NCBI GenBank assembly: GCA_003281125.1
Contig: QCCW01000001.1
Span: forward strand, 50,284-114,283
Direction of reading: 5' to 3'
DNA: 64,000 nucleotides
From: Prochlorococcus sp. AG-347-N23
Lineage (GTDB): Bacteria > Cyanobacteriota > Cyanobacteriia > PCC-6307 > Cyanobiaceae
Positions 8,224-10,462 of this stretch are shown piece by piece. The notes below the pieces were generated by a model. The model was not told the origin of the DNA. It ran no database searches and saw only the letters and a list, made by a program, of their open reading frames with translations. The position numbers and the translations under genes were made by a program. How positions within the stretch are numbered: the first letter of the stretch is position 1; each line of letters opens with the position of its first letter.

Positions 8224-8805
8224 TTATTTTAATTTAGGTGTTCTGTCACCTTTAAATCTTTTACTTACACTCTTACTATTTTTAAGATACCAACGCCATT
8301 TTATATTTTTTGCCTTTGAAATGCCAATTCTAGTAGTTTGAATAAGATCTTTTTCTTCTAGATTTGACTCTCTTTGAGAAATCCACAAAGAATTATTATT
8401 AAAAACTTCAAGTGAGTTAAATGATATGTCTACACCGAATGTCTTAGTAACGAGGCCAGGTCCAGAAGCTATTCTTTCATTCTTTTTCGAGATAAAAACA
8501 GCCCTTATTAATACACCACTTGCAAAATTTTCTTTATCAGTAACTATGTTTAAACAATGATGAATGCCGTAAGATTTGTAAATATAAAATGTTCCAGGTT
8601 TGCCAAATAATGGTTTATTTGATTTGGTTATTTTGCGGTAACCGTGACAGGCCTCTTCTTCCTGAGAATAAGCTTCAGTTTCAACAATAATTCCTTTAAC
8701 TTTATCTTCATCATTTTTTTTTATGAGGCGACAGCCTATTAAATCAGGGGCAACAAGTTTAGAGTGCCGATAAAAAAAATTTTTTGGAAATAAGTGTTCT
8801 TCTAT
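8224..8805 (-). CDS. 3-methyladenine/methylpurine DNA glycosylase (AAG/MPG family); missing from ORF track; no ATG/GTG/TTG start
   Basis: Manual translation: (I)EEHLFPKNFFYRHSKLVAPDLIGCRLIKKNDEDKVKGIIVETEAYSQEEEACHGYRKITKSNKPLFGKPGTFYIYKSYGIHHCLNIVTDKENFASGVLIRAVF...ASGPGLVTKTFGVD...GDRTPKLK*; uninterrupted. Only plausible initiator after the upstream TGA (8809-8811) is ATA at 8803-8805. Confidence 0.8.
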   Translation of the reverse strand: MEEHLFPKNFFYRHSKLVAPDLIGCRLIKKNDEDKVKGIIVETEAYSQEEEACHGYRKITKSNKPLFGKPGTFYIYKSYGIHHCLNIVTDKENFASGVLIRAVFISKKNERIASGPGLVTKTFGVDISFNSLEVFNNNSLWISQRESNLEEKDLIQTTRIGISKAKNIKWRWYLKNSKSVSKRFKGDRTPKLK

Positions 8806-8974
8806 TTTTCAATATTTATCTATTACTATTTTTAGCTGAGAAAGATAATTGAGGCTATTAATTGATATTGATTTTCAAAAAGATGATTTTTTTTTAAAAT
8901 TATTTGAAATTCAAAGGATATGTAAATAAGTTGTTCTTAATAAACTATTATTTAATAAGAAAGATATTAAAGGT

Positions 8975-9273: not shown

Positions 9274-10305
9274 TTAGTTGCTTCCAATAAATGTTTTGTT
9301 GACTATCTTTAATAAAAATTTTTTTATTTTAAAGCCTGGATATAAATTTATGATTTTTCTTATTTTACCCCTCTTTTTGCTATGACTCCTTACACCAATT
9401 AATAAATCATAAATAAAGTTAAAGATATCTTCTTTACTTTCAAATATCCCAACCCTTTGTGGAGAACCTTTTTTATCCAATAATGGCTTAGTTTTTTCAT
9501 AAGCTATTTTGTATTCAAACCAAGGAATCGAAGGCCAAAGATGATGAATGAGATGGTAATTTTGTCCCATTATTAATAAATTCATAAATTTGCTTGGATA
9601 AACTCGAGAATTTATCCATTTATTTCTTGATCTAAATGGTCTATGGGGTAAATAATCAAAAAATATTCCTAAAGTGACTCCTACCATTAATGCTGGGCCG
9701 AACCATAAATTATAAATTAAATTCATAAAGTCAAATTTCAAACCTGCCAAGATAATTGTTATAAATATGGATCTTTCAATTCCCCATTGCAGTAATTCAT
9801 ATCTTCGCCAGAGTTTTCTTTGAAAGAAAAACACCTCATGATAAAAAAATCTTGGAGCAATCAGCCAAATTGGACCAAAAGTACTGACAATATGATCTGG
9901 ATCATTTTTAGGGTGATTTACGTGTATATGATGCTGTAAATGAACTCTCGTAAAAACTGGGAAGCTAAACCCCAATAGAATGGCTGATCCATGGCCCATC
10001 GCTTGATTTATCCAAGGAACTGGGTGAGCAGCTTTATGACAGGCATCATGGATAACAGTACCTTCAATATGTAAAGCTAAAAATGCAGTGGCTACGAGTA
10101 AAGGTAAAGGCCAAACACCTCTATACCATTGCCATATACTAAGAAAGGCAAGAAAATAACCGCCAAAAAACAAACCTAATGTTGGATTCCAAAAACTTGG
10201 CGGATCTACGTAATTTTTAATCTCTTTTTGCCAATTAAATGTTTTTGAAGAATTAGTATTTTTAGTTGTATTTATACTGGTTAAGTTTGAAATCGTTTCT
10301 TTTAT
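9274..10305 (-). CDS. crtR: Beta-carotene hydroxylase (fatty-acid-hydroxylase/desaturase-like di-iron family); N-terminus extended beyond the ORF-track start at 10173
   Basis: HDACHKAAH, HLQHHIHVNH, NYHLIHHLWP histidine boxes. Upstream in-frame codons encode ...SKTFNWQKEIKNYVDPPSFWNPTLG, resembling the CrtR N-terminus, with no ATG/GTG/TTG before the TAA at 10309-10311; ATA at 10303-10305. Confidence 0.88.
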   Translation of the reverse strand: MKETISNLTSINTTKNTNSSKTFNWQKEIKNYVDPPSFWNPTLGLFFGGYFLAFLSIWQWYRGVWPLPLLVATAFLALHIEGTVIHDACHKAAHPVPWINQAMGHGSAILLGFSFPVFTRVHLQHHIHVNHPKNDPDHIVSTFGPIWLIAPRFFYHEVFFFQRKLWRRYELLQWGIERSIFITIILAGLKFDFMNLIYNLWFGPALMVGVTLGIFFDYLPHRPFRSRNKWINSRVYPSKFMNLLIMGQNYHLIHHLWPSIPWFEYKIAYEKTKPLLDKKGSPQRVGIFESKEDIFNFIYDLLIGVRSHSKKRGKIRKIINLYPGFKIKKFLLKIVNKTFIGSN

Positions 10306-10462
10306 TCTTTAAATAATATAACTAATTTTATAAGATGATTGCATGCTAAAACATAAAAAATTTCTTTTAAAAGATTTTTAATTTAATTTTAATGTGTTAA
10401 ATTAATCATCTTAAGAAAAAAAAATTTTAAAATAAACCTCTTTCAATTATTATTTTATTTGA

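Follow-up and report, generated by a model that had tools for sequence, protein, structure and literature searches.

A methylpurine-DNA glycosylase gene of Prochlorococcus that is probably translated from a conserved AUA codon

The mpg gene of Prochlorococcus sp. AG-347-N23 is probably a functional gene translated from an AUA codon, with initiation at AUH codons (AUA, AUC or AUU) an old trait of Prochlorococcus and its relatives. AUA initiation of mpg is strongly supported by comparison with related sequences. The gene lies in a contiguous stretch of 64,000 nucleotides, which is called the window here; coordinates refer to it. As in infC-type genes, mpg has an N-terminal AUH codon, no usable canonical start (ATG, GTG or TTG) and conservation of this state among relatives.

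The minus-strand stop-to-stop frame at 8808..8224 is open over 194 codons. From AUA, the coding sequence (8224..8805, minus strand) comprises 193 codons and a TAA stop. It matches Pfam PF02245 with E=1.4e-50 and 171.6 bits (cut-off 27) over profile positions 2-180 of 181, that is, over the whole domain, which bears out the preliminary description of an open AAG/MPG frame of about 194 codons. TIGR00567 is also matched above its cut-off (138.4 against 116.35). NCBI equivalog cut-offs are not reached, with NF002003 the best at 160.9 against 182. Membership of mpg in the family stands because the broader subfamily cut-off is reached, and no equivalog subgroup is claimed. Alignment to the human AAG structures 1f4r and 1bnk places both the ETEAY (IVETEAY) and YG....C.NI regions in the protein. 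The IVETEAY segment includes the active-site glutamate of AAG. On its sequence, mpg is an intact methylpurine-DNA (3-methyladenine-DNA) glycosylase (AAG/MPG, PF02245) with predicted excision activity. Its neighbours are pyrB, 22 nt downstream on the same strand, and the divergent gatC upstream.

Upstream of the mpg domain the frame reads TGA (8809..8811, minus strand), AAA and ATA (8803..8805, minus strand), so that the in-frame stop lies two codons upstream of AUA. The first ATG, GTG or TTG in the frame is a TTG at 8388, codon 140, well beyond the catalytic region. The absence of a canonical start between the upstream TGA and the N-terminus, as first described, is thus confirmed, and ATA, then named as the only reasonable initiator, is indeed the sole near-cognate start between TGA and the domain. 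Among 60 non-overlapping window frames of at least 90 codons, mpg alone has its first canonical start so late; in the other frames it falls within about the first sixth, although the beta-carotene hydroxylase gene crtR nonetheless loses 44 codons. The NCBIfam NF002003 alignment pairs mpg residue 5 with profile position 5, so that the N-terminus of the family and the AUA differ by no more than about one residue.

The locus was aligned, as the preliminary description had proposed, across high-light Prochlorococcus and beyond. The same-genus set comprises 125 distinct mpg sequences, with identical ones removed. At the position of the window ATA, 124 of the 125 have AUA, one has AUC and none has AUG. 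The codons that follow vary (E/K/D/V, E/K/Q/N, E/H/K/Q, L/F/S), so that the isoleucine codon stays constant in an otherwise variable N-terminus. A stop (TGA or TAA) lies exactly two codons upstream of the AUH codon in 87/125, and the interval from the nearest in-frame stop to this codon is free of canonical starts in 111/125. Median pairwise dN/dS is about 0.16 (0.18 between the window and the remaining sequences), and the frame is intact among the genus matches listed. Members of the clade of genome G015 lack a canonical start near the mpg domain and keep AAA ATA GAT. The flanking genes at the same loci start with ATG in every case (pyrB, 105/105; gatC, 89/89). The dN/dS values and the conserved codon together indicate that the mpg protein is made and selected and that the missing start is not recent. 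They lend comparative support to the earlier proposal of translation from a non-AUG codon (AUA) and exclude its alternative, a recently lost start codon. The probability that the gene is a pseudogene, or that its start was lost recently or through a sequencing error, appears negligible: a canonical start is missing, and CP12 of G015 demonstrates that single-strain losses do occur, but no sister strain carries ATG at the site while this strain decays, the frame being under purifying selection, and the same codon state is common to 125 distinct sequences from many assemblies, which is incompatible with a base error.

An internal start was considered and rejected. The first in-frame canonical codon lies beyond the catalytic region in most same-genus sequences (it is codon 59 in 63/125, with earlier, scattered positions in 27), so a protein initiated there would in most cases lack the catalytic region. 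Upstream sequence offers other candidates. An ATG occurs 8 codons upstream of the AUA in 79/125 and is absent from 46/125, the window among these; in 9 sequences this in-frame ATG is open and potentially usable. An out-of-frame TTG (8810..8812, minus strand), 7 nt upstream and with a frame that overlaps the mpg start, is present in 74/125 including the window. These codons could in principle serve the gene by readthrough of UGA from the in-frame AUG or by a +1 shift from the out-of-frame UUG, a route that we regard as highly improbable. Readthrough fails because 46 of the 125 sequences, the window and 45 others, have no such ATG and because the stop varies between TGA and TAA; the ATG is also near a conserved box, which is possibly promoter sequence and not message. 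The +1 shift fails because 48/125 have no out-of-frame start entering mpg at all, and neither the ATG nor the TTG is a shared feature in other genera. It is also very unlikely that a 6-codon upstream frame (ATG...TGA) feeds reinitiation at the adjacent AUA. An ATG and a stop directly before AAA ATA are found in 70/125, but only some members of one clade have the upstream frame; its absence from the window, the G015 clade and other genera means that it is not the general mechanism.

The conserved box is GCTAAA (8831..8836, minus strand), 31-32 nt upstream of AUA in an upstream block that is conserved though non-coding. Among the 97 sequences with the box it lies 31 nt upstream of the start in 90 and 32 nt in 7. 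This spacing suggests that it is possibly part of a promoter. The number of promoter-like sites is 8, against 4.5 +/- 2.5 in shuffles, a difference that carries no information. No Shine-Dalgarno-like tetramer (AGGA, GGAG, GAGG or AAGG) occurs at -20..-4 in 123/125. A search for known RNA elements in Rfam gave only sub-threshold, chance-like matches, and a search for a terminator at mpg found none.

Beyond the genus, AUH codons recur at the mpg start. In genus group g65, a position common to the loci, seven codons ahead of the FF motif, is AUC in 19/22 and AUU in 2/22, and 20/22 loci have no canonical start of any kind. The basal same-genus locus L141 and groups g39, g55 and g34 share the spacing of the window, with AUA exactly 9 codons ahead of the FF/FY motif, and the sister genus g46 (L219) has ATG at this same distance. 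Likewise, CCC ATA GCC recurs in marine Synechococcus-type genomes (L170, L180, L214) and is matched by CCC ATG GCC in L221. The strongest comparative argument for this codon as the start comes from such paired sites, where one lineage has AUA and another AUG. ATG is present in mpg of genera g43, g50, g62 and g40, and in more distantly related cyanobacteria the frame offers canonical starts. This distribution points to an old AUH start of mpg with occasional AUG that is not universal, and to a third base that probably drifted among A, C and U between clades of Prochlorococcus and relatives. Five Synechococcus-type genomes of the same family (G126, G235, G198, G175 and G125) have additional mpg matches. 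Those in G126, G125 and G175 lie elsewhere and cover only N-terminal parts (about residues 7 to 51-96). The additional matches are possibly integration-site duplicates or pseudogene pieces.

Other genes with conserved AUH starts were sought in 1.2 Mb of G015 stretches (40 kb of which were N) by a start-agnostic scan, with follow-up in relatives. The crtR frame (9274..10308, minus strand) has no canonical start near its N-terminus and likely starts at AUU (10291-10293). No canonical start is present in 74/83 related loci, and the ATT is kept among all matches listed while codons on both sides vary. The crtR protein scores 470.1 bits against NCBIfam NF045688 (cut-off 475). At two crtR loci (L020 and L039) an ATG has been gained just before the ATT. 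For scpA (L374-L399), 22/26 loci lack a canonical start and have AAA ATA or ATT; in two loci TAA immediately precedes ATA. A gene for a STAS anti-sigma-factor antagonist (anti-anti-sigma factor; L404-L419) has no canonical start in 14/16, its start context being TAG or TAA followed by ATC ATA GAA GAT. In comB (L434-L455), ATT followed by Asn-Leu codons occurs in 22/22 and a canonical start is missing in 12/22; position 1 of the NCBI equivalog profile for ComB falls on the AUU codon. A SpoU methyltransferase gene (L494-L511) lacks a canonical start in 15/17 and has two candidate AUH sites.

Two further candidates from the scan were rejected. CP12 has ATG in 29/30 genomes (L344-L373) and AAG only in G015 (L346), where it represents a single-strain start loss or a sequence error. 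A short gene (L464; G015 1338581-1338805) is shortened at the 5' end in G015 alone, and its relatives have an upstream ATG. In picocyanobacterial genomes with a readable start, infC (L262-L283) has ATG in its conserved N-terminus, and the classical AUU autoregulation of IF3 therefore appears to be absent from the picocyanobacteria examined. The contrast with CP12, the gene at 1338581 and infC indicates that the comparison separates conserved AUH starts from single-strain losses. One can speculate that mpg, scpA, the STAS gene, comB, crtR and possibly the SpoU gene form a translational regulon in which the dose from AUA and AUU starts is set jointly by IF3 or ribosome state, but we consider this rather unlikely. 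If true, such a regulon would couple the doses of DNA repair, chromosome segregation, stress signalling and pigment enzymes and would be hidden from annotation.

AUA and AUU starts are already known in bacteria, and mpg adds an unusually deeply conserved case. The infC start is AUU in E. coli, ATC in Streptomyces and AUA in S. aureus, and IF3 disfavours AUH codons (PMC5472188, PMC13009471); mpg likewise has an AUH start, but unlike infC it does not encode a translation factor. In S. aureus, ccpN and citZ start with AUA and cvfC1 with AUU, with conservation for ccpN and cvfC1; reporters of the three genes give about 10% of AUG expression in poor medium, and ccpN reaches up to 30% in rich medium (PMC13009471). 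Extended Shine-Dalgarno motifs accompany the S. aureus infC, ccpN and cvfC1 sites, whereas mpg lacks them (123/125). Dose-setting by a non-canonical start through IF3 has been proven experimentally for Streptomyces sigR, which starts with GTC (PMC5472188); sigR and mpg share a non-canonical start but differ in codon and in kind of protein. Proteogenomics of Nostoc PCC 7120 includes ATA and ATT starts with peptide support among eight revised genes, and the passages considered do not describe conservation across a genus (PMC8557916). A limited literature search found no description of AUH starts in Prochlorococcus. In E. coli, the weak AUU start of pcnB limits an enzyme that is harmful in excess. 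The analogy of pcnB with mpg extends to dose control only.

If ribosomes initiate at the mpg AUA, the ordinary initiator tRNA would read it through a third-base mismatch, and fMet would still be expected as the first residue. IF3 would make this initiation inefficient, and selection may keep this abasic-site-forming glycosylase at a low dose. By analogy with start-codon work in other bacteria, it is plausible that mpg expression is held low via AUA (PMC13009471). AAG overexpression in yeast is mutagenic via abasic sites and bulge binding (PMC5363859), which suggests why such a glycosylase would be kept low.

Another reading accepts AUA as the start and denies it a regulatory role: an old AUG-to-AUA change may have been tolerated under AT-biased mutation and weak selection and then inherited. 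We give this reading a substantial, though minority, share of belief. It is favoured by the AT-rich genome, by the occurrence of the trait in several unrelated genes and by the AUA column itself, whose third base shows no stronger conservation than a few other mpg codons. It is opposed by the retention of AUH across many genera and by the failure of AUG to be regained at the start-site codon in any of the 125 same-genus sequences or in g65, g39, g55 and g34. A-to-G changes also occur at most comparable third positions, with G-ending codons in 16/20 A-majority Lys/Glu/Gln columns of mpg. No G occurs in the other 4/20, so that the chance of finding no G at one codon is about 1 in 5 for this gene and this genus alone and from few comparison columns. 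Selection against AUG at the mpg start is thus suggested and not proven, since those four A-ending columns likewise lack G, and the comparison columns are too few for a statistical claim.

Prochlorococcus is among the most abundant photosynthetic organisms, and in its genomes such genes can be missed or given a wrong start by gene finders restricted to ATG, GTG and TTG. Mis-annotation of this kind would lead to the mistaken conclusion that repair genes have been lost or that proteins are shortened. The conserved AUH codon at the start of mpg, a functional gene probably translated from AUA, provides a clean, testable case of start-codon dose control, which is of interest because glycosylase excess is mutagenic in other organisms, as for AAG in yeast (PMC5363859). 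The parallel genes with AUH starts provide a set in which a regulatory trait can be tested against drift.
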